Assembly: GCF_052324685.1 (NCBI RefSeq) | Contig: NC_135211.1 | Span: 52,072,626 to 52,136,625 of the forward strand | Length of the DNA: 64,000 nucleotides | Direction of reading: 5' to 3' | Source of the DNA: Brachyhypopomus gauderio | Taxonomy: Eukaryota > Chordata > Actinopteri > Gymnotiformes > Hypopomidae | Shown here: piece after piece, positions 1 to 64,000 of the stretch | How positions within the stretch are numbered: the first letter of the stretch is position 1 | Layout of the letters: every line of letters begins with the position of its first letter | Translations under genes and position numbers: made by a program | Notes under the pieces: model-generated | What the model was told of the DNA's origin: nothing | The model's input: only the letters and a program-made list of their open reading frames with translations | Database searches by the model: none

Positions 1-97
1 CCTTTTTGTGTCAAGACTGTCAAATGCTTCCCATGTCAGAGGTCAAGAATATCTGGACATGTTCTGAATCACAGAGCAAGGCTAAACGTAGCCTGGA

Positions 98-109
98 TAG
101 CTCAGTCGG
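98..109 (+). promoter_or_regulatory. Pol III A box of tRNA-Lys (representative)
   Basis: TAGCTCAGTCGG fits the A-box pattern TRGYNNARNNG and covers tRNA positions 8-19. TFIIIC binds here together with the B box. Equivalent boxes lie at the same offset in every Lys gene; Tyr has TAGCTCAGATGG at its positions 8-19. Confidence 0.9.
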
Positions 110-141
110 TAGAGCATCAGACTTTTAATCTGAGGGTCCAG

Positions 142-152
142 GGTTCAAGTCC
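142..152 (+). promoter_or_regulatory. Pol III B box of tRNA-Lys (representative)
   Basis: GGTTCAAGTCC fits the B-box pattern GGTTCRANYCC, in the T arm, and is the main TFIIIC contact. The same position is hit by mutations in a few Tyr and Glu copies elsewhere in the array. Confidence 0.9.
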
Positions 153-219
153 CTGTTCAGGCGTTGAACTTTACATGACCGTCAGCTCTTGAGCACCGTT
201 CACTCATCGTCAGGCAGGC

Positions 220-223
220 TTTT
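220..223 (+). terminator. Candidate Pol III terminator for tRNA-Lys (representative)
   Basis: TTTT is the first run of four T after the Lys gene, 57 nt past its 3' end, predicting an unusually long 3' trailer. Four T is the minimum for vertebrate Pol III and can leak. The run is present in nearly all units and is deleted after unit 6. Confidence 0.55.
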
Positions 224-228
224 GGATT

Positions 229-246
229 AAGCTGAACTTCCAGCTT
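229..246 (+). other. Short hairpin downstream of tRNA-Lys (representative)
   Basis: AAGCTG (229-234) and CAGCTT (241-246) form a perfect 6-bp stem around a 6-nt loop, just beyond the Lys TTTT. It recurs in each unit. No function is known to me; it may be chance. Confidence 0.35.
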
Positions 247-348
247 TACGTCTGCCTACCTGTGACTTCCTTGTCATTAATTATTTTGTCTATGTCCTTG
301 TTAATGATGACAAAAAAAACAACAATTAAAGCCACTCAGCCTTTCCTT

Positions 349-361
349 TCTCTCTCTCTCT
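349..361. repeat. (TC)n microsatellite (representative)
   Basis: A short TC tract present in each unit. It is one dinucleotide longer in units 35, 43, 44, 49, 54 and 60; in units 44, 49, 54 and 60 the longer tract marks the first unit of a higher-order repeat. Confidence 0.85.
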
Positions 362-635
362 ATGTGACATCACAATAGATTTTCTCAAAAAGCAATTCAA
401 ATTGTTCTAACCATTGGTGGGACCAACCCGTGGCCTTTTACCATCCACGTGTCCAAAATGCAGTACGCATGCCAATGTTGTTAACAGACATACGTGTTGG
501 TAGCTCTACATGTCCAACTGGTACAGTGTGAGGTTTCCTCTTTGGTGGACCTTAAAGAGTTGAAAAAGCCACAACCGAACTGGTATCTTTGTCAACGTCC
601 TTGTTTCTGGATCTATGCTGCATGTGCGTCAGAAT

Positions 636-722
636 CCTTCGGTAGCTCAGATGGTAGAGCGGAGGACTGTAGAGGTTAAAGCAGCAATCCTTAGGCCACC
701 GGTTCAAATCCGGTTCGAAGGA
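636..722 (+). tRNA. tRNA-Tyr (GTA) with 14-nt intron, reference copy
   Basis: Unit 1. 87 nt; 73 nt after splicing. Acceptor CCTTCGG pairs with TCGAAGG (one G-T at 7-66), discriminator A. Exon 1 is 636-672 with anticodon GTA at 669-671; the intron is 673-686, one base 3' of the anticodon as in all eukaryotic tRNA-Tyr; exon 2 is 687-722. The exact intron edge is placed by fit to the anticodon stem GAGGA/TCCTT. A box covers positions 8-19; B box GGTTCAAATCC spans 701-711. An 8-T terminator follows at 729-736. It decodes UAU/UAC. Confidence 0.97.
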
Positions 723-728
723 AGCTTC

Positions 729-736
729 TTTTTTTT
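729..736 (+). terminator. Pol III terminator of tRNA-Tyr (representative)
   Basis: T8 starting 7 nt after the Tyr 3' end. Units 1, 2, 8, 10, 12, 19, 22, 29 and 33 have 8 T; all other units have 7. It lies in the 63-bp gap where Tyr and Glu converge. Confidence 0.92.
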
Positions 737-770
737 CCAGGATATTACTGCCCTTAATGTCATGATGAGC

Positions 771-775
771 AAAAA
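771..775 (-). terminator. Pol III terminator of tRNA-Glu (representative)
   Basis: A5 on +, read as T5 on -, 10 nt past the Glu 3' end. Present in all units except unit 11, where it is interrupted. Confidence 0.88.
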
Positions 776-785
776 GTTTTCTGTT

Positions 786-857
786 TTCCCTGACCGGGAA
801 TCGAACCCGGGCCGCGGCGGTGAGAGCGCCGAATCCTAGCCACTAGACCATCAGGGA
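786..857 (-). tRNA. tRNA-Glu (CTC), reference copy
   Basis: Unit 1. 72 nt on the - strand. Acceptor TCCCTGA pairs fully with TCAGGGA; anticodon stem CGGCG/CGCCG; loop CTCTCAC with anticodon CTC (822-824 on +); T arm CCGGG-TTCGATT-CCCGG; discriminator A. It decodes GAG. The 5' end faces Lys across 204 bp and the 3' end faces Tyr across 63 bp. No intron and no encoded CCA. An octamer-like ATGCTAAT lies at 868-875, 11 bp upstream of its 5' end; function unknown. Confidence 0.97.
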
Positions 858-2105: not shown

Positions 2106-2235
2106 TTGAACTTTACATGACCGTCAGCTCTTGAGCACCGTTCACTCATCGTCAGGCAGGCTTTTGGATTAAGCTGAACTTCCAGCTTTACGTCTGCCTA
2201 CCTGTGACTTCCTTGTCATTAATTATTTTGTCTAT

Positions 2236-3368
2236 ATATGCTTCCATTACCACACATCATTAATAAACATGGTATTAGTTATCATCAATATGCAGATGAC
2301 ACTCAACTTTATATCTCGCTAGAACCTAAAGCCCTAAAATCAATTTGCTCACTGTTTGACTGCATAGATGATATACAGACATGGATGTCTGACAATTTTC
2401 TGCAGTTAAATAAACAGAAGACAGAGGTTCTTGTTCTTGGCAGTGATTCACAAAGGAATGATGTCCAGACTTATTTAAATCAAATGAATCTGAAAGCCAG
2501 ACAATGTGTTAAGAACCTGGGCGTCACCTTTGATAATGAGCTCAGCTTCAAATCACACATCATGACTACATGCAAGACAGCTTACTTTCATCTTCGAAAC
2601 ATCGCTAAGGTCCGAGATATGCTCTCTCCTGCTGACAGTGAAAAACTTGTCCATGCATTTATCACATCAAGGCTAGATTATTGTAACGCTGTTCTATCTG
2701 CTCTTCCAAAGAGCTCTATTTCGCACCTACAGCGAGTTCAGAACGCGGCTGCAAGGGTTCTGACCCGCAGGAGAAAGAGAGATCATATTACACCTGCACT
2801 CCACTCACTGCACTGGTTACCTGTCAGCTTTAGAATAGATTTTAAGGTTCTAGTCATGGTTTTTAAATGTCTTCATGGTCTTGCCCCTCTTTACCTAAGT
2901 GAAATGATGGTTAGATATGTTCCAGTCAGGTCTCTCAGGTCTTCAAACAGTAATCTACTGGTGATTCCTAAAAGCCGATTAAAGATTGGCGAGGGTGCTT
3001 TTAGCCACTATGGCCCAAAGCTCTGGAATTCTCTTCCTGAAGAGCTCAGAGGCATTTCATCCCTGCATAGTTTTAAGAGCAGTCTCAAAACATTCCTGTT
3101 TAGATCCGCTTTTAGTTAAAACTATTAAGATAGAGTTTCTTATCTTATTTACTTTACTTTTTATTATCTTACTTACTTCACTTTTTACTTTTTATGTTAT
3201 TTTAATATTTTTATCTTTAATTTCTTTTAAAATTTTCTTCTGTCTTTTTGTCTTTGTCTTATCTCCTTTTAATGTTTCTTTTATTTATACTGTAAAGCAC
3301 TTTGAGTTACATGTATGTATGAAAGGTGCTATACAAATAAAGATTATTATTATTATTATTATTATTAT
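2236..3368 (+). mobile_element. 5'-truncated non-LTR retrotransposon (L2/CR1-like LINE), copy 1
   Basis: A 1,133-bp insertion in the Lys-Tyr spacer: comparison with empty units shows it splits ...TTGTCTAT / GTCCTTG... . It carries the 3' part of a reverse transcriptase ORF, an AT-rich 3' UTR, and a tail ending in (ATT)8-AT at 3343-3368, preceded by a GTGCTATACAAATAAAG-like end typical of fish L2-type LINEs. The 5' end is truncated within the RT domain. A target-site duplication of at most AT/TAT is possible, in line with the short or absent duplications of CR1/L2 elements. The clade call rests on remembered family features, not a search. Confidence 0.85.
2238..3119 (+). pseudogene. LINE reverse transcriptase, C-terminal fragment, copy 1
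   Basis: An open frame of 293 codons. Residues 18-21 are YADD, RT motif C with its two catalytic aspartates; RT motifs upstream of it (including A with the other catalytic Asp, and B) and any endonuclease domain are missing because of 5' truncation. After the RT palm comes the thumb/C-terminal region common in vertebrate LINEs (SRLDYCNA near residue 144, LHWLPV near 191, CLHGLAPLYL near 211, GPKLWNSLP near 258). The ATG used is fortuitous, 2 bp inside the insertion. It cannot encode an active enzyme. An overlapping 155-codon frame at its 3' end is a shadow. Confidence 0.85.
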
Positions 3369-7045: not shown

Positions 7046-7118
7046 GCCTGGATAGCTCAGTCGGTAGAGCATCAGACTTTTAATCTGAGGGTCCAGGGTT
7101 CAAGTCCCTGTTCAGGCG
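7046..7118 (+). tRNA. tRNA-Lys (TTT), downstream spacer deleted
   Basis: Unit 6; gene consensus, anticodon 7079-7081. The spacer loses about 130 bp from 22 nt past the gene, removing its usual TTTT; the next TTTT is 7205-7208, 87 nt downstream. Confidence 0.96.
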
Positions 7119-7460
7119 TTGAACTTTACATGACCGTCAGAAAACACCAATTAAAGCCACTCAGCCTTTCCTTTCTCTCTCTCTCTATGTGACATCACAA
7201 TAGATTTTCTCAAAAAGCAATTCAAATTGTTCTAACCATTGGTGGGACCAACCCGTGGCCTTTTACCATCCACGTGTCCAAAATGCAGTACGCATGCCAA
7301 TGTTGTTAACAGACATACGTGTTGGTAGCTCTACATGTCCAACTGGTACAGTGTGAGGTTTCCTCTTTGGTGGACCTTAAAGAGTTGAAAAAGCCACAAC
7401 CGAACTGGTATCTTTGTCAACGTCCTTGTTTCTGGATCTATGCTGCATGTGCGTCAGAAT
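7119..7460. other. Shortened Lys-Tyr spacer with ~130-bp deletion
   Basis: At 7140/7141 the sequence jumps from GACCGTCAG directly to AAAACACCAATTAAAG, skipping the TTTT, hairpin and first part of the A run. This makes the unit 840 bp. The spacer is otherwise standard and holds no gene. Confidence 0.9.
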
Positions 7461-7547
7461 CCTTCGGTAGCTCAGATGGTAGAGCGGAGGACTGTAGAGG
7501 TTAAAGCAGCAATCCTTAGGCCACCGGTTCAAATCCGGTTCGAAGGA
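7461..7547 (+). tRNA. tRNA-Tyr (GTA), intron-containing
   Basis: Unit 7; consensus, intron 7498-7511. Confidence 0.97.
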
Positions 7548-7609
7548 AGCTTCTTTTTTTCCAGGATATTACTGCCTTTAATGTCATGATGGGCAAAAAG
7601 TTTTCTGTT

Positions 7610-7681
7610 TTCCCTGACCGGGAATCGAACCCGGGCCGCGGCGGTGAGAGCGCCGAATCCTAGCCACTAGACCATCAGGGA
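7610..7681 (-). tRNA. tRNA-Glu (CTC)
   Basis: Unit 7; consensus. Confidence 0.97.
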
Positions 7682-7885
7682 CAGCGATGTTATGCTAATG
7701 AATGAAGGCTTTTACATGAGTTCTGGCTGGCCGTTATTCATGAGTGAAGAAAGACCAGAATGTGGGTTATTCGTGACCACACCAGAACATGTGGACCTTT
7801 TTGTGTCAAGACTGTCAAATGCTTCCCATGTCAGAGGTCAAGAATATCTGGACATGTTCTGAATCACAGAGCAAGGCTAAACGTA

Positions 7886-8929: not shown

Positions 8930-9059
8930 TTGAACTTTACATGACCGTCAGCTCTTGAGCACCGTTCACTCATCGTCAGGCAGGCTTTTGGATTAAGCTG
9001 AACTTCCAGCTTTACGTCTGCCTACCTGTGACTTCCTTGTCATTAATTATTTTGTCTAT

Positions 9060-10192
9060 ATATGCTTCCATTACCACACATCATTAATAAACATGGTATT
9101 AGTTATCATCAATATGCAGATGACACTCAACTTTATATCTCGCTAGAACCTAAAGCCCTAAAATCAATTTGCTCACTGTTTGACTGCATAGATGATATAC
9201 AGACATGGATGTCTGACAATTTTCTGCAGTTAAATAAACAGAAGACAGAGGTTCTTGTTCTTGGCAGTGATTCACAAAGGAATGATGTCCAGACTTATTT
9301 AAATCAAATGAATCTGAAAGCCAGACAATGTGTTAAGAACCTGGGCGTCACCTTTGATAATGAGCTCAGCTTCAAATCACACATCATGACTACATGCAAG
9401 ACAGCTTACTTTCATCTTCGAAACATCGCTAAGGTCCGAGATATGCTCTCTCCTGCTGACAGTGAAAAACTTGTCCATGCATTTATCACATCAAGGCTAG
9501 ATTATTGTAACGCTGTTCTATCTGCTCTTCCAAAGAGCTCTATTTCGCACCTACAGCGAGTTCAGAACGCGGCTGCAAGGGTTCTGACCCGCAGGAGAAA
9601 GAGAGATCATATTACACCTGCACTCCACTCACTGCACTGGTTACCTGTCAGCTTTAGAATAGATTTTAAGGTTCTAGTCATGGTTTTTAAATGTCTTCAT
9701 GGTCTTGCCCCTCTTTACCTAAGTGAAATGATGGTTAGATATGTTCCAGTCAGGTCTCTCAGGTCTTCAAACAGTAATCTACTGGTGATTCCTAAAAGCC
9801 GATTAAAGATTGGCGAGGGTGCTTTTAGCCACTATGGCCCAAAGCTCTGGAATTCTCTTCCTGAAGAGCTCAGAGGCATTTCATCCCTGCATAGTTTTAA
9901 GAGCAGTCTCAAAACATTCCTGTTTAGATCCGCTTTTAGTTAAAACTATTAAGATAGAGTTTCTTATCTTATTTACTTTACTTTTTATTATCTTACTTAC
10001 TTCACTTTTTACTTTTTATGTTATTTTAATATTTTTATCTTTAATTTCTTTTAAAATTTTCTTCTGTCTTTTTGTCTTTGTCTTATCTCCTTTTAATGTT
10101 TCTTTTATTTATACTGTAAAGCACTTTGAGTTACATGTATGTATGAAAGGTGCTATACAAATAAAGATTATTATTATTATTATTATTATTAT
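9060..10192 (+). mobile_element. 5'-truncated L2/CR1-like LINE, copy 2
   Basis: Same length (1,133 bp), same two junctions and same (ATT)8-AT tail (10167-10192) as copy 1. It sits between the same two unit subtypes (8-T unit before, GGGCAAA unit after), so it is a duplicate of the host segment and not a second insertion. Confidence 0.85.
9062..9943 (+). pseudogene. LINE reverse transcriptase, C-terminal fragment, copy 2
   Basis: 293 codons; the predicted product is identical to copy 1 (YADD at residues 18-21, upstream RT motifs absent). Lack of any amino-acid change since duplication fits a young duplication or gene conversion. Confidence 0.85.
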
Positions 10193-12471: not shown

Positions 12472-12558
12472 CCTTCGGTAGCTCAGATGGTAGAGCAGAG
12501 GACTGTAGAGGTTAAAGCAGCAATCCTTAGGCCACCTGATCAAATCCGGTTCGAAGGA
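12472..12558 (+). tRNA. tRNA-Tyr (GTA), degenerate copy, probable pseudogene
   Basis: Unit 11; intron 12509-12522. Three substitutions: G26A (12497), G52T (12537, breaks G52-C62) and T54A (12539, conserved T-loop base). The B box reads TGATCAAATCC instead of GGTTCAAATCC, so TFIIIC binding and T-arm folding should both suffer. Confidence 0.75.
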
Positions 12559-12610: not shown

Positions 12611-12620
12611 GTTTTCTGTT

Positions 12621-50457: not shown

Positions 50458-50544
50458 CCTTCGGTAGCTCAGATGGTAGAGCGGAGGACTGTAGAGGTTA
50501 AAGCAGCAATCCTTAGGCCACCGGTTCAAATCCGGTTCGAAGGA
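50458..50544 (+). tRNA. tRNA-Tyr (GTA), intron-containing
   Basis: Unit 49; consensus, intron 50495-50508. Confidence 0.97.
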
Positions 50545-50606
50545 AGCTTCTTTTTTTCCAGGATATTACTGCCTTTAATGTCATGATGAGCAAAAAGTTT
50601 TCTGTT

Positions 50607-50678
50607 TTCCCTGACCGGGAATCGAACCCGGGCCGCGGTGGTGAGAGCGCCGAATCCTAGCCACTAGACCATCAGGGA
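50607..50678 (-). tRNA. tRNA-Glu (CTC), G40A variant
   Basis: Unit 49; C30/A40 mismatch (50639); 5' flank TTACGC. Confidence 0.9.
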
Positions 50679-50882
50679 CAGCGATGTTACGCTAATGGAT
50701 GAAGGCTTTTACATGAGTTCTGGCTGGCCGTTATTCATGAGTGAAGAAAGACCAGAATGTGGGTTATTCGTGACCACACCAGAACATGTGGACCTTTTTG
50801 TGTCAAGACTGTCAAATGCTTCCCATGTCAGAGGTCAAGAATATCTGGACATGTTCTGAATCACAGAGCAAGGCTAAATGTA

Positions 50883-50955
50883 GCCTGGATAGCTCAGTCG
50901 GTAGAGCATCAGACTTTTAATCTGAGGGTCCAGGGTTCAAGTCCCTGTTCAGGCG
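50883..50955 (+). tRNA. tRNA-Lys (TTT)
   Basis: Unit 49; consensus, anticodon 50916-50918. T at -4; class G spacer. Confidence 0.97.
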
Positions 50956-51428
50956 TTGAACTTTACATGACCGTCAGCTCTTGAGCACCGTTCACTCATC
51001 GTCAGGCAGGCTTTTGGATTAAGCTGAACTTCCAGCTTTACGTCTGCCTACCTGTGACTTCCTTGTCATTAATTATTTTGTCTATGTCCTTGTTAATGAT
51101 GACAAAAAAAAACAACAATTAAAGCCACTCAGCCTTTCCTTTCTCTCTCTCTCTATGTGACATCACAATAGATTTTCTCAAAAAGCAATTCAAATTGTTC
51201 TAACCATTGGTGGGACCAACCCGTGGCCTTTTACCATCCACGTGTCCAAAATGCAGTACGCATGCCAATGTTGTTAACAGACATACGTGTTGGTAGCTCT
51301 ACATGTCCAACTGGTACAGTGTGAGGTTTCCTCTTTGGTGGACCTTAAAGAGTTGAAAAAGCCACAACCGAACTGGTATCTTTGTCAACGTCCTTGTTTC
51401 TGGATCTATGCTGCATGTGCGTCAGAAT

Positions 51429-51515
51429 CCTTCGGTAGCTCAGATGGTAGAGCGGAGGACTGTAGAGGTTAAAGCAGCAATCCTTAGGCCACCGGTTCAA
51501 ATCCGGTTCGAAGGA
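51429..51515 (+). tRNA. tRNA-Tyr (GTA), intron-containing
   Basis: Unit 50; consensus, intron 51466-51479. Confidence 0.97.
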
Positions 51516-51577
51516 AGCTTCTTTTTTTCCAGGATATTACTGCCTTTAATGTCATGATGAGCAAAAAGTTTTCTGTT

Positions 51578-51649
51578 TTCCCTGACCGGGAATCGAACCC
51601 GGGCCGCGGTGGTGAGAGCGCCGAATCCTAGCCACTAGACCATCAGGGA
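51578..51649 (-). tRNA. tRNA-Glu (CTC), G40A variant
   Basis: Unit 50; C30/A40 mismatch (51610). Confidence 0.9.
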
Positions 51650-51853
51650 CAGCGATGTTATGCTAATGGATGAAGGCTTTTACATGAGTTCTGGCTGGCC
51701 GTTATTCATGAGTGAAGAAAGACCAGAATGTGGGTTATTCGTGACCACACCAGAACATGTGGACCTTTTTGTGTCAAGACTGTCAAATGCTTCCCATGTC
51801 AGAGGTCAAGAATATCTGGACATGTTCTGAATCACAGAGCAAGGCTAAATGTA

Positions 51854-51926
51854 GCCTGGATAGCTCAGTCGGTAGAGCATCAGACTTTTAATCTGAGGGT
51901 CCAGGGTTCAAGTCCCTGTTCAGGCG
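51854..51926 (+). tRNA. tRNA-Lys (TTT)
   Basis: Unit 50; consensus, anticodon 51887-51889. T at -4; class G spacer. Confidence 0.97.
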
Positions 51927-52398
51927 TTGAACTTTACATGACCGTCAGCTCTTGAGCACCGTTCACTCATCGTCAGGCAGGCTTTTGGATTAAGCTGAAC
52001 TTCCAGCTTTACGTCTGCCTACCTGTGACTTCCTTGTCATTAATTATTTTGTCTATGTCCTTGTTAATGATGACAAAAAAAACAACAATTAAAGCCACTC
52101 AGCCTTTCCTTTCTCTCTCTCTCTATGTGACATCACAATAGATTTTCTCAAAAAGCAATTCAAATTGTTCTAACCATTGGTGGGACCAACCCGTGGCCTT
52201 TTACCATCCACGTGTCCAAAATGCAGTACGCATGCCAATGTTGTTAACAGACATACGTGTTGGTAGCTCTACATGTCCAACTGGTACAGTGTGAGGTTTC
52301 CTCTTTGGTGGACCTTAAAGAGTTGAAAAAGCCACAACCGAACTGGTATCTTTGTCAACGTCCTTGTTTCTGGATCTATGCTGCATGTGCGTCAGAAT

Positions 52399-52485
52399 CC
52401 TTCGGTAGCTCAGATGGTAGAGCGGAGGACTGTAGAGGTTAAAGCAGCAATCCTTAGGCCACCGGTTCAAATCCGGTTCGAAGGA
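52399..52485 (+). tRNA. tRNA-Tyr (GTA), intron-containing
   Basis: Unit 51; consensus, intron 52436-52449. Confidence 0.97.
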
Positions 52486-52547
52486 AGCTTCTTTTTTTCC
52501 AGGATATTACTGCCTTTAATGTCATGATGAGCAAAAAGTTTTCTGTT

Positions 52548-52619
52548 TTCCCTGACCGGGAATCGAACCCGGGCCGCGGCGGTGAGAGCGCCGAATCCTA
52601 GCCACTAGACCATCAGGGA
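52548..52619 (-). tRNA. tRNA-Glu (CTC)
   Basis: Unit 51; consensus, G40. Confidence 0.97.
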
Positions 52620-52823
52620 CAGCGATGTTATGCTAATGGATGAAGGCTTTTACATGAGTTCTGGCTGGCCGTTATTCATGAGTGAAGAAAGACCAGAATG
52701 TGGGTTATTCGTGACCACACCAGAACATGTGGACCTTTTTGTGTCAAGACTGTCAAATGCTTCCCATGTCAGAGGTCAAGAATATCTGGACATGTTCTGA
52801 ATCACAGAGCAAGGCTAAACGTA

Positions 52824-52896
52824 GCCTGGATAGCTCAGTCGGTAGAGCATCAGACTTTTAATCTGAGGGTCCAGGGTTCAAGTCCCTGATCAGGCG
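52824..52896 (+). tRNA. tRNA-Lys (TTT), T66A acceptor variant
   Basis: Unit 51; anticodon 52857-52859. T66 is A (52889), an A/A mismatch with A7 at the base of the acceptor stem. C at -4; class A spacer. Confidence 0.9.
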
Positions 52897-53368
52897 TTGA
52901 ACTTTACATGACCGTCAGCTCTTGAGCACCGTTCACTCATCGTCAGGCAGACTTTTGGATTAAGCTGAACTTCCAGCTTTACATCTGCCTACCTGTGACT
53001 TCCTTGTCATTAATTATTTTGTCTATGTCCTTGTTAATGATGAAAAAAAAAACAACAATTAAAGCCACTCAGCCTTTCCTTTCTCTCTCTCTCTATGTGA
53101 CATCACAATAGATTTTCTCAAAAAGCAATTCAAATTGTTCTAACCATTGGTGGGACCAACCCGTGGCCTTTTACCATCCACGTGTCCAAAATGCAGTACG
53201 CATGCCAATGTTGTTAACAGACATACGTGTTGGTAGCTCTACATGTCCAACTGGTACAGTGTGAGGTTTCCTCTTTGGTGGACCTTAAAGAGTTGAAAAA
53301 GCCACAACCGAACTGGTATCTTTGTCAACGTCCTTGTTTCTGGATCTATGCTGCATGTGCGTCAGAAT

Positions 53369-53455
53369 CCTTCGGTAGCTCAGATGGTAGAGCGGAGGAC
53401 TGTAGAGGTTAAAGCAGCAATCCTTAGGCCACCGGTTCAAATCCGGTTCGAAGGA
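53369..53455 (+). tRNA. tRNA-Tyr (GTA), intron-containing
   Basis: Unit 52; consensus, intron 53406-53419. Confidence 0.97.
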
Positions 53456-53517
53456 AGCTTCTTTTTTTCCAGGATATTACTGCCTTTAATGTCATGATGA
53501 GCAAAAAGTTTTCTGTT

Positions 53518-53589
53518 TTCCCTGACCGGGAATCGAACCCGGGCCGCGGTGGTGAGAGCGCCGAATCCTAGCCACTAGACCATCAGGGA
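53518..53589 (-). tRNA. tRNA-Glu (CTC), G40A variant
   Basis: Unit 52; C30/A40 mismatch (53550). Confidence 0.9.
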
Positions 53590-53793
53590 CAGCGATGTTA
53601 TGCTAATGGATGAAGGCTTTTACATGAGTTCTGGCTGGCCGTTATTCATGAGTGAAGAAAGACCAGAATGTGGGTTATTCGTGACCACACCAGAACATGT
53701 GGACCTTTTTGTGTCAAGACTGTCAAATGCTTCCCATGTCAGAGGTCAAGAATATCTGGACATGTTCTGAATCACAGAGCAAGGCTAAATGTA

Positions 53794-53866
53794 GCCTGGA
53801 TAGCTCAGTCGGTAGAGCATCAGACTTTTAATCTGAGGGTCCAGGGTTCAAGTCCCTGTTCAGGCG
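53794..53866 (+). tRNA. tRNA-Lys (TTT)
   Basis: Unit 52; consensus, anticodon 53827-53829. T at -4; class G spacer. Confidence 0.97.
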
Positions 53867-54338
53867 TTGAACTTTACATGACCGTCAGCTCTTGAGCACC
53901 GTTCACTCATCGTCAGGCAGGCTTTTGGATTAAGCTGAACTTCCAGCTTTACGTCTGCCTACCTGTGACTTCCTTGTCATTAATTATTTTGTCTATGTCC
54001 TTGTTAATGATGACAAAAAAAACAACAATTAAAGCCACTCAGCCTTTCCTTTCTCTCTCTCTCTATGTGACATCACAATAGATTTTCTCAAAAAGCAATT
54101 CAAATTGTTCTAACCATTGGTGGGACCAACCCGTGGCCTTTTACCATCCACGTGTCCAAAATGCAGTACGCATGCCAATGTTGTTAACAGACATACGTGT
54201 TGGTAGCTCTACATGTCCAACTGGTACAGTGTGAGGTTTCCTCTTTGGTGGACCTTAAAGAGTTGAAAAAGCCACAACCGAACTGGTATCTTTGTCAACG
54301 TCCTTGTTTCTGGATCTATGCTGCATGTGCGTCAGAAT

Positions 54339-54425
54339 CCTTCGGTAGCTCAGATGGTAGAGCGGAGGACTGTAGAGGTTAAAGCAGCAATCCTTAGGCC
54401 ACCGGTTCAAATCCGGTTCGAAGGA
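54339..54425 (+). tRNA. tRNA-Tyr (GTA), intron-containing
   Basis: Unit 53; consensus, intron 54376-54389. Confidence 0.97.
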
Positions 54426-54487
54426 AGCTTCTTTTTTTCCAGGATATTACTGCCTTTAATGTCATGATGAGCAAAAAGTTTTCTGTT

Positions 54488-54559
54488 TTCCCTGACCGGG
54501 AATCGAACCCGGGCCGCGGCGGTGAGAGCGCCGAATCCTAGCCACTAGACCATCAGGGA
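54488..54559 (-). tRNA. tRNA-Glu (CTC)
   Basis: Unit 53; consensus, G40. Confidence 0.97.
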
Positions 54560-54763
54560 CAGCGATGTTATGCTAATGGATGAAGGCTTTTACATGAGTT
54601 CTGGCTGGCCGTTATTCATGAGTGAAGAAAGACCAGAATGTGGGTTATTCGTGACCACACCAGAACATGTGGACCTTTTTGTGTCAAGACTGTCAAATGC
54701 TTCCCATGTCAGAGGTCAAGAATATCTGGACATGTTCTGAATCACAGAGCAAGGCTAAACGTA

Positions 54764-54836
54764 GCCTGGATAGCTCAGTCGGTAGAGCATCAGACTTTTA
54801 ATCTGAGGGTCCAGGGTTCAAGTCCCTGTTCAGGCG
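54764..54836 (+). tRNA. tRNA-Lys (TTT)
   Basis: Unit 53; consensus, anticodon 54797-54799. C at -4; class A spacer. Confidence 0.97.
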
Positions 54837-55309
54837 TTGAACTTTACATGACCGTCAGCTCTTGAGCACCGTTCACTCATCGTCAGGCAGACTTTTGGAT
54901 TAAGCTGAACTTCCAGCTTTACATCTGCCTACCTGTGACTTCCTTGTCATTAATTATTTTGTCTATGTCCTTGTTAATGATGAAAAAAAAACACCAATTA
55001 AAGCCACTCAGCCTTTCCTTTCTCTCTCTCTCTCTATGTGACATCACAATAGATTTTCTCAAAAAGCAATTCAAATTGTTCTAACCATTGGTGGGACCAA
55101 CCTGTGGCCTTTTACCATCCACGTGTCCAAAATGCAGTACGCATGCCAATGTTGTTAACAGACATACGTGTTGGTAGCTCTACATGTCCAACTGGTACAG
55201 TGTGAGGTTTCCTCTTTGGTGGACCTTAAAGAGTTGAAAAAGCCACAACCGAACTGGTATCTTTGTCAACGTCCTTGTTTCTGGATCTATGCTGCATGTG
55301 CGTCAGAAT

Positions 55310-55396
55310 CCTTCGGTAGCTCAGATGGTAGAGCGGAGGACTGTAGAGGTTAAAGCAGCAATCCTTAGGCCACCGGTTCAAATCCGGTTCGAAGGA
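55310..55396 (+). tRNA. tRNA-Tyr (GTA), intron-containing
   Basis: Unit 54; consensus, intron 55347-55360. Confidence 0.97.
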
Positions 55397-55458
55397 AGCT
55401 TCTTTTTTTCCAGGATATTACTGCCTTTAATGTCATGATGAGCAAAAAGTTTTCTGTT

Positions 55459-55530
55459 TTCCCTGACCGGGAATCGAACCCGGGCCGCGGTGGTGAGAGC
55501 GCCGAATCCTAGCCACTAGACCATCAGGGA
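55459..55530 (-). tRNA. tRNA-Glu (CTC), G40A variant
   Basis: Unit 54; C30/A40 mismatch (55491); 5' flank TTACGC. Confidence 0.9.
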
Positions 55531-55734
55531 CAGCGATGTTACGCTAATGGATGAAGGCTTTTACATGAGTTCTGGCTGGCCGTTATTCATGAGTGAAGAA
55601 AGACCAGAATGTGGGTTATTCGTGACCACACCAGAACATGTGGACCTTTTTGTGTCAAGACTGTCAAATGCTTCCCATGTCAGAGGTCAAGAATATCTGG
55701 ACATGTTCTGAATCACAGAGCAAGGCTAAATGTA

Positions 55735-55807
55735 GCCTGGATAGCTCAGTCGGTAGAGCATCAGACTTTTAATCTGAGGGTCCAGGGTTCAAGTCCCTGT
55801 TCAGGCG
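55735..55807 (+). tRNA. tRNA-Lys (TTT)
   Basis: Unit 54; consensus, anticodon 55768-55770. T at -4; class G spacer. Confidence 0.97.
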
Positions 55808-56280
55808 TTGAACTTTACATGACCGTCAGCTCTTGAGCACCGTTCACTCATCGTCAGGCAGGCTTTTGGATTAAGCTGAACTTCCAGCTTTACGTCTGCC
55901 TACCTGTGACTTCCTTGTCATTAATTATTTTGTCTATGTCCTTGTTAATGATGACAAAAAAAAACAACAATTAAAGCCACTCAGCCTTTCCTTTCTCTCT
56001 CTCTCTATGTGACATCACAATAGATTTTCTCAAAAAGCAATTCAAATTGTTCTAACCATTGGTGGGACCAACCCGTGGCCTTTTACCATCCACGTGTCCA
56101 AAATGCAGTACGCATGCCAATGTTGTTAACAGACATACGTGTTGGTAGCTCTACATGTCCAACTGGTACAGTGTGAGGTTTCCTCTTTGGTGGACCTTAA
56201 AGAGTTGAAAAAGCCACAACCGAACTGGTATCTTTGTCAACGTCCTTGTTTCTGGATCTATGCTGCATGTGCGTCAGAAT

Positions 56281-56367
56281 CCTTCGGTAGCTCAGATGGT
56301 AGAGCGGAGGACTGTAGAGGTTAAAGCAGCAATCCTTAGGCCACCGGTTCAAATCCGGTTCGAAGGA
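56281..56367 (+). tRNA. tRNA-Tyr (GTA), intron-containing
   Basis: Unit 55; consensus, intron 56318-56331. Confidence 0.97.
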
Positions 56368-56429
56368 AGCTTCTTTTTTTCCAGGATATTACTGCCTTTA
56401 ATGTCATGATGAGCAAAAAGTTTTCTGTT

Positions 56430-56501
56430 TTCCCTGACCGGGAATCGAACCCGGGCCGCGGTGGTGAGAGCGCCGAATCCTAGCCACTAGACCATCAGGG
56501 A
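56430..56501 (-). tRNA. tRNA-Glu (CTC), G40A variant
   Basis: Unit 55; C30/A40 mismatch (56462). Confidence 0.9.
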
Positions 56502-56705
56502 CAGCGATGTTATGCTAATGGATGAAGGCTTTTACATGAGTTCTGGCTGGCCGTTATTCATGAGTGAAGAAAGACCAGAATGTGGGTTATTCGTGACCAC
56601 ACCAGAACATGTGGACCTTTTTGTGTCAAGACTGTCAAATGCTTCCCATGTCAGAGGTCAAGAATATCTGGACATGTTCTGAATCACAGAGCAAGGCTAA
56701 ATGTA

Positions 56706-56778
56706 GCCTGGATAGCTCAGTCGGTAGAGCATCAGACTTTTAATCTGAGGGTCCAGGGTTCAAGTCCCTGTTCAGGCG
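56706..56778 (+). tRNA. tRNA-Lys (TTT)
   Basis: Unit 55; consensus, anticodon 56739-56741. T at -4; class G spacer. Confidence 0.97.
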
Positions 56779-57250
56779 TTGAACTTTACATGACCGTCAG
56801 CTCTTGAGCACCGTTCACTCATCGTCAGGCAGGCTTTTGGATTAAGCTGAACTTCCAGCTTTACGTCTGCCTACCTGTGACTTCCTTGTCATTAATTATT
56901 TTGTCTATGTCCTTGTTAATGATGACAAAAAAAACAACAATTAAAGCCACTCAGCCTTTCCTTTCTCTCTCTCTCTATGTGACATCACAATAGATTTTCT
57001 CAAAAAGCAATTCAAATTGTTCTAACCATTGGTGGGACCAACCCGTGGCCTTTTACCATCCACGTGTCCAAAATGCAGTACGCATGCCAATGTTGTTAAC
57101 AGACATACGTGTTGGTAGCTCTACATGTCCAACTGGTACAGTGTGAGGTTTCCTCTTTGGTGGACCTTAAAGAGTTGAAAAAGCCACAACCGAACTGGTA
57201 TCTTTGTCAACGTCCTTGTTTCTGGATCTATGCTGCATGTGCGTCAGAAT

Positions 57251-57337
57251 CCTTCGGTAGCTCAGATGGTAGAGCGGAGGACTGTAGAGGTTAAAGCAGC
57301 AATCCTTAGGCCACCGGTTCAAATCCGGTTCGAAGGA
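57251..57337 (+). tRNA. tRNA-Tyr (GTA), intron-containing
   Basis: Unit 56; consensus, intron 57288-57301. Confidence 0.97.
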
Positions 57338-57399
57338 AGCTTCTTTTTTTCCAGGATATTACTGCCTTTAATGTCATGATGAGCAAAAAGTTTTCTGTT

Positions 57400-57471
57400 T
57401 TCCCTGACCGGGAATCGAACCCGGGCCGCGGCGGTGAGAGCGCCGAATCCTAGCCACTAGACCATCAGGGA
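57400..57471 (-). tRNA. tRNA-Glu (CTC)
   Basis: Unit 56; consensus, G40. Confidence 0.97.
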
Positions 57472-57675
57472 CAGCGATGTTATGCTAATGGATGAAGGCT
57501 TTTACATGAGTTCTGGCTGGCCGTTATTCATGAGTGAAGAAAGACCAGAATGTGGGTTATTCGTGACCACACCAGAACATGTGGACCTTTTTGTGTCAAG
57601 ACTGTCAAATGCTTCCCATGTCAGAGGTCAAGAATATCTGGACATGTTCTGAATCACAGAGCAAGGCTAAACGTA

Positions 57676-57748
57676 GCCTGGATAGCTCAGTCGGTAGAGC
57701 ATCAGACTTTTAATCTGAGGGTCCAGGGTTCAAGTCCCTGTTCAGGCG
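57676..57748 (+). tRNA. tRNA-Lys (TTT)
   Basis: Unit 56; consensus, anticodon 57709-57711. C at -4; class A spacer. Confidence 0.97.
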
Positions 57749-58220
57749 TTGAACTTTACATGACCGTCAGCTCTTGAGCACCGTTCACTCATCGTCAGGC
57801 AGACTTTTGGATTAAGCTGAACTTCCAGCTTTACATCTGCCTACCTGTGACTTCCTTGTCATTAATTATTTTGTCTATGTCCTTGTTAATGATGAAAAAA
57901 AAAACAACAATTAAAGCCACTCAGCCTTTCCTTTCTCTCTCTCTCTATGTGACATCACAATAGATTTTCTCAAAAAGCAATTCAAATTGTTCTAACCATT
58001 GGTGGGACCAACCCGTGGCCTTTTACCATCCACGTGTCCAAAATGCAGTACGCATGCCAATGTTGTTAACAGACATACGTGTTGGTAGCTCTACATGTCC
58101 AACTGGTACAGTGTGAGGTTTCCTCTTTGGTGGACCTTAAAGAGTTGAAAAAGCCACAACCGAACTGGTATCTTTGTCAACGTCCTTGTTTCTGGATCTA
58201 TGCTGCATGTGCGTCAGAAT

Positions 58221-58307
58221 CCTTCGGTAGCTCAGATGGTAGAGCGGAGGACTGTAGAGGTTAAAGCAGCAATCCTTAGGCCACCGGTTCAAATCCGGTT
58301 CGAAGGA
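58221..58307 (+). tRNA. tRNA-Tyr (GTA), intron-containing
   Basis: Unit 57; consensus, intron 58258-58271. Confidence 0.97.
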
Positions 58308-58369
58308 AGCTTCTTTTTTTCCAGGATATTACTGCCTTTAATGTCATGATGAGCAAAAAGTTTTCTGTT

Positions 58370-58441
58370 TTCCCTGACCGGGAATCGAACCCGGGCCGCG
58401 GTGGTGAGAGCGCCGAATCCTAGCCACTAGACCATCAGGGA
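58370..58441 (-). tRNA. tRNA-Glu (CTC), G40A variant
   Basis: Unit 57; C30/A40 mismatch (58402). Confidence 0.9.
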
Positions 58442-58645
58442 CAGCGATGTTATGCTAATGGATGAAGGCTTTTACATGAGTTCTGGCTGGCCGTTATTCA
58501 TGAGTGAAGAAAGACCAGAATGTGGGTTATTCGTGACCACACCAGAACATGTGGACCTTTTTGTGTCAAGACTGTCAAATGCTTCCCATGTCAGAGGTCA
58601 AGAATATCTGGACATGTTCTGAATCACAGAGCAAGGCTAAATGTA

Positions 58646-58718
58646 GCCTGGATAGCTCAGTCGGTAGAGCATCAGACTTTTAATCTGAGGGTCCAGGGTT
58701 CAAGTCCCTGTTCAGGCG
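58646..58718 (+). tRNA. tRNA-Lys (TTT)
   Basis: Unit 57; consensus, anticodon 58679-58681. T at -4; class G spacer. Confidence 0.97.
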
Positions 58719-59190
58719 TTGAACTTTACATGACCGTCAGCTCTTGAGCACCGTTCACTCATCGTCAGGCAGGCTTTTGGATTAAGCTGAACTTCCAGCT
58801 TTACGTCTGCCTACCTGTGACTTCCTTGTCATTAATTATTTTGTCTATGTCCTTGTTAATGATGACAAAAAAAACAACAATTAAAGCCACTCAGCCTTTC
58901 CTTTCTCTCTCTCTCTATGTGACATCACAATAGATTTTCTCAAAAAGCAATTCAAATTGTTCTAACCATTGGTGGGACCAACCCGTGGCCTTTTACCATC
59001 CACGTGTCCAAAATGCAGTACGCATGCCAATGTTGTTAACAGACATACGTGTTGGTAGCTCTACATGTCCAACTGGTACAGTGTGAGGTTTCCTCTTTGG
59101 TGGACCTTAAAGAGTTGAAAAAGCCACAACCGAACTGGTATCTTTGTCAACGTCCTTGTTTCTGGATCTATGCTGCATGTGCGTCAGAAT

Positions 59191-59277
59191 CCTTCGGTAG
59201 CTCAGATGGTAGAGCGGAGGACTGTAGAGGTTAAAGCAGCAATCCTTAGGCCACCGGTTCAAATCCGGTTCGAAGGA
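59191..59277 (+). tRNA. tRNA-Tyr (GTA), intron-containing
   Basis: Unit 58 (the extra unit of higher-order copy 3); consensus, intron 59228-59241. Confidence 0.97.
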
Positions 59278-59339
59278 AGCTTCTTTTTTTCCAGGATATT
59301 ACTGCCTTTAATGTCATGATGAGCAAAAAGTTTTCTGTT

Positions 59340-59411
59340 TTCCCTGACCGGGAATCGAACCCGGGCCGCGGTGGTGAGAGCGCCGAATCCTAGCCACTAG
59401 ACCATCAGGGA
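59340..59411 (-). tRNA. tRNA-Glu (CTC), G40A variant
   Basis: Unit 58; C30/A40 mismatch (59372). Confidence 0.9.
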
Positions 59412-59615
59412 CAGCGATGTTATGCTAATGGATGAAGGCTTTTACATGAGTTCTGGCTGGCCGTTATTCATGAGTGAAGAAAGACCAGAATGTGGGTTAT
59501 TCGTGACCACACCAGAACATGTGGACCTTTTTGTGTCAAGACTGTCAAATGCTTCCCATGTCAGAGGTCAAGAATATCTGGACATGTTCTGAATCACAGA
59601 GCAAGGCTAAATGTA

Positions 59616-59688
59616 GCCTGGATAGCTCAGTCGGTAGAGCATCAGACTTTTAATCTGAGGGTCCAGGGTTCAAGTCCCTGTTCAGGCG
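59616..59688 (+). tRNA. tRNA-Lys (TTT)
   Basis: Unit 58; consensus, anticodon 59649-59651. T at -4; class G spacer. Confidence 0.97.
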
Positions 59689-60160
59689 TTGAACTTTACA
59701 TGACCGTCAGCTCTTGAGCACCGTTCACTCATCGTCAGGCAGGCTTTTGGATTAAGCTGAACTTCCAGCTTTACGTCTGCCTACCTGTGACTTCCTTGTC
59801 ATTAATTATTTTGTCTATGTCCTTGTTAATGATGACAAAAAAAACAACAATTAAAGCCACTCAGCCTTTCCTTTCTCTCTCTCTCTATGTGACATCACAA
59901 TAGATTTTCTCAAAAAGCAATTCAAATTGTTCTAACCATTGGTGGGACCAACCCGTGGCCTTTTACCATCCACGTGTCCAAAATGCAGTACGCATGCCAA
60001 TGTTGTTAACAGACATACGTGTTGGTAGCTCTACATGTCCAACTGGTACAGTGTGAGGTTTCCTCTTTGGTGGACCTTAAAGAGTTGAAAAAGCCACAAC
60101 CGAACTGGTATCTTTGTCAACGTCCTTGTTTCTGGATCTATGCTGCATGTGCGTCAGAAT

Positions 60161-60247
60161 CCTTCGGTAGCTCAGATGGTAGAGCGGAGGACTGTAGAGG
60201 TTAAAGCAGCAATCCTTAGGCCACCGGTTCAAATCCGGTTCGAAGGA
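60161..60247 (+). tRNA. tRNA-Tyr (GTA), intron-containing
   Basis: Unit 59; consensus, intron 60198-60211. Confidence 0.97.
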
Positions 60248-60309
60248 AGCTTCTTTTTTTCCAGGATATTACTGCCTTTAATGTCATGATGAGCAAAAAG
60301 TTTTCTGTT

Positions 60310-60381
60310 TTCCCTGACCGGGAATCGAACCCGGGCCGCGGCGGTGAGAGCGCCGAATCCTAGCCACTAGACCATCAGGGA
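60310..60381 (-). tRNA. tRNA-Glu (CTC)
   Basis: Unit 59; consensus, G40. Confidence 0.97.
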
Positions 60382-60585
60382 CAGCGATGTTATGCTAATG
60401 GATGAAGGCTTTTACATGAGTTCTGGCTGGCCGTTATTCATGAGTGAAGAAAGACCAGAATGTGGGTTATTCGTGACCACACCAGAACATGTGGACCTTT
60501 TTGTGTCAAGACTGTCAAATGCTTCCCATGTCAGAGGTCAAGAATATCTGGACATGTTCTGAATCACAGAGCAAGGCTAAACGTA

Positions 60586-60658
60586 GCCTGGATAGCTCAG
60601 TCGGTAGAGCATCAGACTTTTAATCTGAGGGTCCAGGGTTCAAGTCCCTGTTCAGGCG
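60586..60658 (+). tRNA. tRNA-Lys (TTT)
   Basis: Unit 59; consensus, anticodon 60619-60621. C at -4; class A spacer. Confidence 0.97.
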
Positions 60659-61131
60659 TTGAACTTTACATGACCGTCAGCTCTTGAGCACCGTTCACTC
60701 ATCGTCAGGCAGACTTTTGGATTAAGCTGAACTTCCAGCTTTACATCTGCCTACCTGTGACTTCCTTGTCATTAATTATTTTGTCTATGTCCTTGTTAAT
60801 GATGAAAAAAAAACACCAATTAAAGCCACTCAGCCTTTCCTTTCTCTCTCTCTCTCTATGTGACATCACAATAGATTTTCTCAAAAAGCAATTCAAATTG
60901 TTCTAACCATTGGTGGGACCAACCTGTGGCCTTTTACCATCCACGTGTCCAAAATGCAGTACGCATGCCAATGTTGTTAACAGACATACGTGTTGGTAGC
61001 TCTACATGTCCAACTGGTACAGTGTGAGGTTTCCTCTTTGGTGGACCTTAAAGAGTTGAAAAAGCCACAACCGAACTGGTATCTTTGTCAACGTCCTTGT
61101 TTCTGGATCTATGCTGCATGTGCGTCAGAAT

Positions 61132-61218
61132 CCTTCGGTAGCTCAGATGGTAGAGCGGAGGACTGTAGAGGTTAAAGCAGCAATCCTTAGGCCACCGGTT
61201 CAAATCCGGTTCGAAGGA
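61132..61218 (+). tRNA. tRNA-Tyr (GTA), intron-containing
   Basis: Unit 60; consensus, intron 61169-61182. Confidence 0.97.
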
Positions 61219-61280
61219 AGCTTCTTTTTTTCCAGGATATTACTGCCTTTAATGTCATGATGAGCAAAAAGTTTTCTGTT

Positions 61281-61352
61281 TTCCCTGACCGGGAATCGAA
61301 CCCGGGCCGCGGTGGTGAGAGCGCCGAATCCTAGCCACTAGACCATCAGGGA
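61281..61352 (-). tRNA. tRNA-Glu (CTC), G40A variant
   Basis: Unit 60; C30/A40 mismatch (61313); 5' flank TTACGC. Confidence 0.9.
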
Positions 61353-61556
61353 CAGCGATGTTACGCTAATGGATGAAGGCTTTTACATGAGTTCTGGCTG
61401 GCCGTTATTCATGAGTGAAGAAAGACCAGAATGTGGGTTATTCGTGACCACACCAGAACATGTGGACCTTTTTGTGTCAAGACTGTCAAATGCTTCCCAT
61501 GTCAGAGGTCAAGAATATCTGGACATGTTCTGAATCACAGAGCAAGGCTAAATGTA

Positions 61557-61629
61557 GCCTGGATAGCTCAGTCGGTAGAGCATCAGACTTTTAATCTGAG
61601 GGTCCAGGGTTCAAGTCCCTGTTCAGGCG
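61557..61629 (+). tRNA. tRNA-Lys (TTT)
   Basis: Unit 60; consensus, anticodon 61590-61592. T at -4; class G spacer. Confidence 0.97.
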
Positions 61630-62102
61630 TTGAACTTTACATGACCGTCAGCTCTTGAGCACCGTTCACTCATCGTCAGGCAGGCTTTTGGATTAAGCTG
61701 AACTTCCAGCTTTACGTCTGCCTACCTGTGACTTCCTTGTCATTAATTATTTTGTCTATGTCCTTGTTAATGATGACAAAAAAAAACAACAATTAAAGCC
61801 ACTCAGCCTTTCCTTTCTCTCTCTCTCTATGTGACATCACAATAGATTTTCTCAAAAAGCAATTCAAATTGTTCTAACCATTGGTGGGACCAACCCGTGG
61901 CCTTTTACCATCCACGTGTCCAAAATGCAGTACGCATGCCAATGTTGTTAACAGACATACGTGTTGGTAGCTCTACATGTCCAACTGGTACAGTGTGAGG
62001 TTTCCTCTTTGGTGGACCTTAAAGAGTTGAAAAAGCCACAACCGAACTGGTATCTTTGTCAACGTCCTTGTTTCTGGATCTATGCTGCATGTGCGTCAGA
62101 AT

Positions 62103-62189
62103 CCTTCGGTAGCTCAGATGGTAGAGCGGAGGACTGTAGAGGTTAAAGCAGCAATCCTTAGGCCACCGGTTCAAATCCGGTTCGAAGGA
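62103..62189 (+). tRNA. tRNA-Tyr (GTA), intron-containing
   Basis: Unit 61; consensus, intron 62140-62153. Confidence 0.97.
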
Positions 62190-62251
62190 AGCTTCTTTTT
62201 TTCCAGGATATTACTGCCTTTAATGTCATGATGAGCAAAAAGTTTTCTGTT

Positions 62252-62323
62252 TTCCCTGACCGGGAATCGAACCCGGGCCGCGGTGGTGAGAGCGCCGAAT
62301 CCTAGCCACTAGACCATCAGGGA
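62252..62323 (-). tRNA. tRNA-Glu (CTC), G40A variant
   Basis: Unit 61; C30/A40 mismatch (62284). Confidence 0.9.
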
Positions 62324-62528
62324 CAGCGATGTTATGCTAATGGATGAAGGCTTTTACATGAGTTCTGGCTGGCCGTTATTCATGAGTGAAGAAAGACCAG
62401 AATGTGGGTTATTCGTGACCCACACCAGAACATGTGGACCTTTTTGTGTCAAGACTGTCAAATGCTTCCCATGTCAGAGGTCAAGAATATCTGGACATGT
62501 TCTGAATCACAGAGCAAGGCTAAATGTA

Positions 62529-62601
62529 GCCTGGATAGCTCAGTCGGTAGAGCATCAGACTTTTAATCTGAGGGTCCAGGGTTCAAGTCCCTGTTCAGGC
62601 G
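62529..62601 (+). tRNA. tRNA-Lys (TTT)
   Basis: Unit 61; consensus, anticodon 62562-62564. T at -4; class G spacer. One extra C (CCC at 62419-62421) in the Glu-Lys gap makes this gap 205 bp. Confidence 0.96.
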
Positions 62602-63073
62602 TTGAACTTTACATGACCGTCAGCTCTTGAGCACCGTTCACTCATCGTCAGGCAGGCTTTTGGATTAAGCTGAACTTCCAGCTTTACGTCTGCCTACCTG
62701 TGACTTCCTTGTCATTAATTATTTTGTCTATGTCCTTGTTAATGATGACAAAAAAAACAACAATTAAAGCCACTCAGCCTTTCCTTTCTCTCTCTCTCTA
62801 TGTGACATCACAATAGATTTTCTCAAAAAGCAATTCAAATTGTTCTAACCATTGGTGGGACCAACCCGTGGCCTTTTACCATCCACGTGTCCAAAATGCA
62901 GTACGCATGCCAATGTTGTTAACAGACATACGTGTTGGTAGCTCTACATGTCCAACTGGTACAGTGTGAGGTTTCCTCTTTGGTGGACCTTAAAGAGTTG
63001 AAAAAGCCACAACCGAACTGGTATCTTTGTCAACGTCCTTGTTTCTGGATCTATGCTGCATGTGCGTCAGAAT

Positions 63074-63160
63074 CCTTCGGTAGCTCAGATGGTAGAGCGG
63101 AGGACTGTAGAGGTTAAAGCAGCAATCCTTAGGCCACCGGTTCAAATCCGGTTCGAAGGA
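63074..63160 (+). tRNA. tRNA-Tyr (GTA), intron-containing
   Basis: Unit 62; consensus, intron 63111-63124. Confidence 0.97.
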
Positions 63161-63222
63161 AGCTTCTTTTTTTCCAGGATATTACTGCCTTTAATGTCAT
63201 GATGAGCAAAAAGTTTTCTGTT

Positions 63223-63294
63223 TTCCCTGACCGGGAATCGAACCCGGGCCGCGGCGGTGAGAGCGCCGAATCCTAGCCACTAGACCATCAGGGA
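63223..63294 (-). tRNA. tRNA-Glu (CTC)
   Basis: Unit 62; consensus, G40. Confidence 0.97.
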
Positions 63295-63498
63295 CAGCGA
63301 TGTTATGCTAATGGATGAAGGCTTTTACATGAGTTCTGGCTGGCCGTTATTCATGAGTGAAGAAAGACCAGAATGTGGGTTATTCGTGACCACACCAGAA
63401 CATGTGGACCTTTTTGTGTCAAGACTGTCAAATGCTTCCCATGTCAGAGGTCAAGAATATCTGGACATGTTCTGAATCACAGAGCAAGGCTAAACGTA

Positions 63499-63571
63499 GC
63501 CTGATAGCTCAGTCGGTAGAGCATCAGACTTTTAATCTGAGGGTCCCAGGGTTCAAGTCCCTGTTCAGGCG
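63499..63571 (+). tRNA. tRNA-Lys (TTT) with two one-base indels
   Basis: Unit 62; anticodon 63531-63533. One G is missing from the acceptor (GCCTG-ATAG) and one C is added before the T stem (GGTCCCAGG, 63545-63547), so the length is still 73 nt but the acceptor stem is out of register. Both changes are homopolymer length changes in a stretch full of them, so sequencing or assembly error is the likelier explanation. Confidence 0.7.
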
Positions 63572-64000
63572 TTGAACTTTTACATGACCGTCAGCTCTTG
63601 AGCACCGTTCACTCATCGTCAGGCAGACTTTTGGATTAAGCTGAACTTCCAGCTTTACATCTGCCTACCTGTGACTTCCTTGTCATTAATTATTTTTGTC
63701 TATGTCCTTGTTAATGATGAAAAAAAAAACAACAATTAAAGCCACTCAGCCTTTCCTTTCTCTCTCTCTCTATGTGACATCACAATAGATTTTCTCAAAA
63801 GCAATTCAAATTGTTCTAACCATTGGTGGGACCAACCCGTGGCCTTTTACCATCCACGTGTCCAAAATGCAGTACGCATGCCAATGTTGTTAACAGACAT
63901 ACGTGTTGGTAGCTCTACATGTCCAACTGGTACAGTGTGAGGTTTCCTCTTTGGTGGACCTTAAAGAGTTGAAAAAAGCCACAACCGAACTGGTATCTTT
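63572..64000. other. Lys-Tyr spacer of partial unit 63, cut by the window edge
   Basis: Class A spacer, no gene. The next Tyr gene would start about 45 bp past the window. Contains one-base length changes at four homopolymers: TTTT near 63578, TTTTT at 63693-63697, AAAA at 63797-63800 and AAAAAA at 63972-63977. Confidence 0.85.

Follow-up and report, generated by a model that had tools for sequence, protein, structure and literature searches.

The 64,000-nucleotide stretch of the Brachyhypopomus gauderio genome analysed here (NC_135211.1, positions 52,072,626 to 52,136,625; referred to below as the window) is filled from end to end by a tandem array of transfer RNA (tRNA) genes. BLASTN searches with the three consensus genes as queries located 63 tRNA-Lys(TTT), 62 tRNA-Tyr(GTA) and 62 tRNA-Glu(CTC) genes, and the Rfam family RF00005 gave 88 and 99 matches in the two halves of the window, every one of them reaching at least the gathering score. 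Both searches thus bear out the total of 187 genes put forward in a preliminary description of this sequence. No RNA family other than tRNA was found in the window by Rfam at the gathering score. The BLASTN hits follow an unbroken Lys, Tyr, Glu rotation and, without exception, each complete unit carries Lys and Tyr on the plus strand and Glu on the minus strand, which corrects the plus, minus, plus arrangement given earlier.

To describe the unit, an alignment was made with the retrotransposon inserts removed and the incomplete edge units excluded (90 bases on the left, 502 on the right), which also leaves out the last Lys gene, bearing two indels. In this alignment, the genes occupy unit positions 1-73 (Lys), 546-632 (Tyr) and 695-766 (Glu), that is 232 of 970 bp. 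Tyr and Glu converge tail to tail with 62 bp between them, while Glu and the following Lys diverge head to head across 204 bp. The GC content is 44.7% in the window and about 45% in the unit. A run of seven T starts 7 bases past Tyr and a run of five T starts 11 bases past Glu; downstream of Lys, the earliest run of four T comes only at base 57, so a longer trailer is expected for Lys than for Tyr and Glu. As previously noted, the Lys genes carry a T4-A69 acceptor pair. Vertebrate tRNA-Lys usually has C4-G69 at this position; since the T4-A69 pair is compensated and unlike the usual one, transcripts from the array would be marked.

The Tyr genes contain a short intron, whose boundaries were placed by visual inspection, with 37/38 taken as the canonical site. 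ARAGORN, run under the bacterial code, counted 185 genes, missed two Tyr genes that carry mutations (at 12472 and at 41725), and labelled 60 of these intron-bearing eukaryotic tRNA-Tyr genes in the window as tRNA-Leu(TAG), because the intron was read through. An identity of the second gene as Leu(TAG) was therefore rejected, both BLASTN and the gene sequence giving Tyr(GTA).

Table 1. Features of the tRNA array, in window coordinates.
Feature	Position	Strand	Remarks
tRNA array	1..64000		62 complete units at 91-63498, each counted from one Lys start to the following one; partial units of 90 bases (left edge) and 502 bases (right edge)
tRNA-Lys(TTT), first of 63	91..163	+	T4-A69 acceptor pair; downstream run of four T begins at base 57 past the gene
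tRNA-Tyr(GTA), first of 62	636..722	+	intron of about 14 nt; T run downstream
tRNA-Glu(CTC), first of 62	786..857	-	T run downstream
Non-LTR retrotransposon, 5'-truncated, 1,133 bp	2235..3367	+	lies between Lys and Tyr; open frame of 298 aa, (ATT)n tail; junction accurate to a few bases
Insert, copy 2	9059..10191	+	identical to copy 1
Insert, copy 3	20857..21992	+	one extra ATT (1,136 bp)
Unit 7, 840 bp	7046..7885		130-bp deletion in the spacer 3' of the Lys gene
Most altered Tyr gene	12472..12558	+	three substitutions, of which two affect the T arm; scores 45.0 in Rfam, versus 57.5
Range of the Glu G40A variant, units 35-61	36331..62528		holds all 13 copies; C-A mismatch in the anticodon stem
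Units 48-52, five-unit block	48942..53793		matches units 53-57
Units 53-57, block copy of units 48-52	53794..58645		at most one difference per unit

The complete units are close to uniform in length, 58 of the 62 measuring 967-972 bp. The claim that the window consists wholly of units of about 970 bp with no unique sequence holds for these; it does not extend to one unit of 840 bp nor to three insert-bearing units of 2,103, 2,103 and 2,106 bp. Mean identity between units reaches 99.35% over 1,891 pairs, with each gap run counted as one change, so the array is not a chance pattern. Even so, 41 distinct sequences are found among the 62 units, units differ by a mean of 6.3 changes over all pairs, none of the 61 adjacent pairs is identical, and the longest exact repeat in the window is 4,382 bp. 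The right-edge bases, 63499-64000, show six gaps and no mismatch relative to the unit consensus, the gaps lying, as judged by eye, mostly in single-base runs. Their long-read sequence was probably left unpolished, and a contig end or a fall in coverage may lie nearby.

Several other classes of tRNA sequence were considered. A mitochondrial tRNA cluster was rejected, as Tyr carries an intron and the genes stand in 62 tandem units. A tRNA-derived short interspersed nuclear element is dispersed and joins a tRNA-like head to an unrelated body; here, each unit holds three full-length genes, the units are in tandem and 158 of the 187 genes are identical to their consensus. The Lys gene gave no exact match in viral or prokaryote contigs, and the Glu gene and the Tyr exons gave none in viral contigs, a form of matching that would miss diverged copies; a prokaryotic or viral origin of the array appears unlikely. 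The array is a genuine nuclear tRNA macrosatellite, and the vertebrate type proposed for it earlier is supported; the appearance of the insert and the tRNAs likewise points to a fish. It is also a large heterogeneous tRNA cluster under the rule of PMC2888827 (at least 50 genes of mixed isotypes, less than 1,000 bp apart). Where an insert is present, the distance from Lys to Tyr grows to about 1.6 kb, so that the same rule splits the array into four runs; the one that follows the last insert comprises by itself 129 genes (43 per isotype).

Differences between the copies are concentrated at CpG dinucleotides. Variable positions make up 13 of 58 CpG bases versus 31 of 912 other bases (odds ratio 8.2, p = 4e-7). 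This is the strict count; a looser one, 19 of 64, includes CpGs made by the minor allele and is biased upward. None of the seven other dinucleotides was significant (GpC, 7/88, p = 0.11). A transition is present at 10 of the 13 variable CpG sites, and both bases vary in four CpGs, at unit positions 537/538, 727/728, 770/771 and 967/968. In addition, CpG is depleted in the spacers (observed/expected ratio of 0.45) and TpG/CpA is enriched in the unit (1.23). Such CpG-concentrated variation is the known signature of methylated-cytosine deamination in the germ line, from which we infer germline methylation of the array.

The unit alignment was examined, through variable sites and stem pairs, for purifying selection on the genes, which was not clearly found. 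Variable sites number 14 of 232 in genes versus 30 of 738 in spacers (p = 0.21), and a stem pair is broken by 7 of the 14 gene substitutions, against 40% expected for random substitutions with transitions weighted double (p = 0.43). One pair-breaking change, Glu G40A, is present in 13 of the 62 units. On these counts, individual gene copies look dispensable. The earlier opinion that sequence cannot tell whether the array is transcribed or silenced was too pessimistic, since the differences between copies offer indirect evidence in the form of a CpG excess and no clear constraint at the level of the copy.

The distribution of the variants informs on how the array has been homogenised. Glu G40A always co-occurs with a T at unit position 967; its limitation to units 35-61 and this linkage point to regional homogenisation. 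Among the right-hand units, groups of five or six recur. When the order of the units was shuffled 500 times, a matching run of at least five units, such as that between units 48-52 and units 53-57, appeared in 6 of the shuffles, and for units 43-62 an equally low difference at lag 5 was obtained in 12 of 5,000 shuffles, the lag and the range having been picked after the pattern was seen. We read this as amplification of multi-unit segments.

The retrotransposon inserts tell of the same process. Their 298-aa frame matches Pfam RVT_1 (E = 4.5e-08) over profile positions 130-205 of 205, the end of the reverse transcriptase domain, and this truncated match together with the (ATT)n tail identifies a 5'-truncated element of the non-LTR (non-long terminal repeat) type, whose end presumably resembles fish L2-type elements. 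The reverse transcriptase frame had no relative in viral contigs. Tandem Repeats Finder (periods up to 500) detected tandem repeats only within the three inserts. As the inserts are the same except for one ATT, a single insertion was copied recently along with its unit. The left neighbours of the insert-bearing units (units 2, 8 and 19) have the same variants in their spacers, at positions 638 and 662 of the unit, and the insert seems to have been copied inside a longer block.

Among the matches listed from the open-licence literature, taken by titles and abstract openings, no vertebrate Lys-Tyr-Glu unit was seen; for an array of this trio the matches dealt mostly with mitochondrial genomes. 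The earlier statement that the array matches none that could be named is fair for this exact trio, yet the kind itself is well known. The 3.18-kb tDNA repeat of Xenopus laevis, for which no description appeared among the 20 of 62 matches listed, is a tandem unit with several tRNA genes, including Tyr and Lys; it is longer and contains more tRNA genes than the unit described here.

In fishes, clusters contain 65% of the tRNA genes and pseudogenes of zebrafish and 87% of those of stickleback (PMC2888827), and zebrafish chromosome 4 bears 5,227 predicted tRNA genes (60%; PMC11574265). According to the latter source, tRNA genes in the large clusters of chromosomes 4, 8 and 3 show near-complete CpG methylation in embryos, open-chromatin signal is undetectable at most tRNA genes, and tRNA level is not predicted by gene copy number. 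Isodecoders of the zebrafish egg and early embryo derive from repetitive regions (PMC11417395). The zebrafish clusters and the present array are both very large and made of mixed tRNA genes, methylation being reported in the former (PMC11574265) and suggested by a mutational footprint in the latter. Nevertheless, the commonest adjacent pairs in Danio are K-N, K-S and R-T, nearly all pairs being parallel (PMC2888827), a trait that is usual in such arrays but does not define them, whereas the pairs here are K-Y, Y-E and E-K and two of the three junctions are antiparallel in each complete unit. The K-Y-E trio and its antiparallel junctions set the array apart from the Danio pairs of that source.

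Outside fishes, the Arabidopsis SYY (Ser-Tyr-Tyr) cluster also consists of tandem mixed tRNA genes, located by heterochromatin, highly methylated and silent in most tissues; root-tip cells transcribe it in its methylated state (PMC12308677), a behaviour that parallels the model proposed below. It differs in being from a plant and in its genes, and the cell-specific output demonstrated there is a proposal here. The tandemly repeated unit of Entamoeba arrays holds one tRNA gene or several, and a [YE] unit occurs (PMC2652664), but this is listed under Glu(TTC) and the Glu found here is CTC. Almost all Entamoeba tRNA genes are arrayed, and the spacers of E. histolytica and E. dispar are AT-rich with short tandem repeats (PMC2652664); no such spacer repeats were found here in the Tandem Repeats Finder search, and the GC content is 44.7%. 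The human variable tandem repeat at 1q23.3 also comes from a vertebrate and has tRNA genes in every one of its units, but its 7.3-kb unit is GC-rich, present in 9-43 units per allele and bound by CTCF, with tRNA making up less than 6% of the unit (PMC4041453), as compared with 232 of 970 bp.

Taken together, the array most likely evolves as a satellite. In the explanation that we consider moderately probable, it would be a tRNA macrosatellite that is largely methylated and neutral copy by copy, with any output restricted to a particular stage. The three tRNA genes of each unit would be transcribed from internal RNA polymerase III (Pol III) promoters of their own. We attribute the multi-unit blocks, the tripled retrotransposon and the 13-fold presence of Glu G40A to unequal exchange or conversion. 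The mutational footprint suggests heavy CpG methylation of the array in the germ line during its recent history; most copies would then be silent at most times, a state reported for the large tRNA clusters of zebrafish (PMC11574265). If any tRNA is supplied, it would be at a restricted stage, most plausibly oogenesis, and the bulk copy number would matter rather than the single gene.

A number of observations weigh against this explanation. Most copies are intact, the 158 consensus-identical genes standing among 187 that all reach the Rfam gathering score, although this intactness can be explained by recent homogenisation and also by selection on the whole array. Two further results hint at some constraint: the genes have no indel in any complete unit, whereas the spacers have several, and diversity weighted by frequency is 0.0039 in the genes, below the 0.0059 of the spacers. 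The constraint tests rest on 14 gene changes and have low power. Regarding methylation, 3 of the 13 variable CpG sites have transversions only, and CpG decay is silent on the cell type and timing of methylation. Finally, the block structure does not extend to the left side: in units 1-34, lag 5 (mean 6.93) did not stand out from the other lags, nor were neighbours more alike than average (6.39 versus 6.31 differences).

The same intactness is what would be expected of a dedicated tRNA source for the growing oocyte or egg, kept large by dosage selection and shut later, a reading that we regard as possible though rather unlikely. Besides the intact genes, which are free of indels in every complete unit, it can draw on the zebrafish egg isodecoders that lie in repetitive regions (PMC11417395), on the tRNA-rich region of zebrafish chromosome 4, which is shared by maternal 5S and small nuclear RNA genes and for which maternal tRNAs have been proposed (PMC11075544), and on the Lys T4-A69 pair, which would mark a separate isodecoder. 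It must, however, accommodate gene sites without clear constraint, the spread of a mismatched Glu variant to 13 of the 62 units, and the CpG footprint. Sequence by itself does not decide between a silent satellite and a maternal supply.

A self-amplifying satellite is a further reading, which we hold to be unlikely: the Pol III genes would drive their own amplification, for example through replication stalling and recombination at active genes, germline methylation would restrain it, and yet oocytes could open the array as a source of maternal Lys tRNA marked by U4-A69. The array would then persist by its own dynamics and not for its tRNAs. Still less can be said for a role in chromatin architecture, in which tRNA genes would recruit TFIIIC or CTCF and the array would insulate or organise the chromosome arm, its transcripts being incidental. 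The human 1q23.3 repeat binds CTCF and has been proposed as a boundary (PMC4041453), but its unit is 7.3 kb long and GC-rich versus 0.97 kb and 45% GC here, and the window offers no flanks to separate; we judge this role highly improbable. That looping or misjoining during assembly inflated an array that is really short, a kind of error which the preliminary description had named among the findings that could overturn it, is barely credible: the last 502 bases do look unpolished and no flank anchors an array that fills the window, but the distinct neighbouring units and the 4.4-kb limit on exact repeats disfavour a loop, though the true length of the array may differ somewhat from the assembled one.

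The array calls for caution in counting such tRNA genes in codon-usage indices, a point also made for zebrafish (PMC11574265). On the question of why tRNA genes stand by the thousand in satellite-like blocks in some fishes, two zebrafish studies of 2024 point in different directions, one tying the tRNAs of the egg and early embryo to repetitive genes (PMC11417395), the other finding methylation and a copy number unrelated to tRNA level (PMC11574265). With its distinguishable units, its distinctive Lys 4-69 pair and its clear mutational footprints, the array of B. gauderio is a good test ground for both views, the U4-A69 pair making the choice between a silent satellite and a maternal supply testable.

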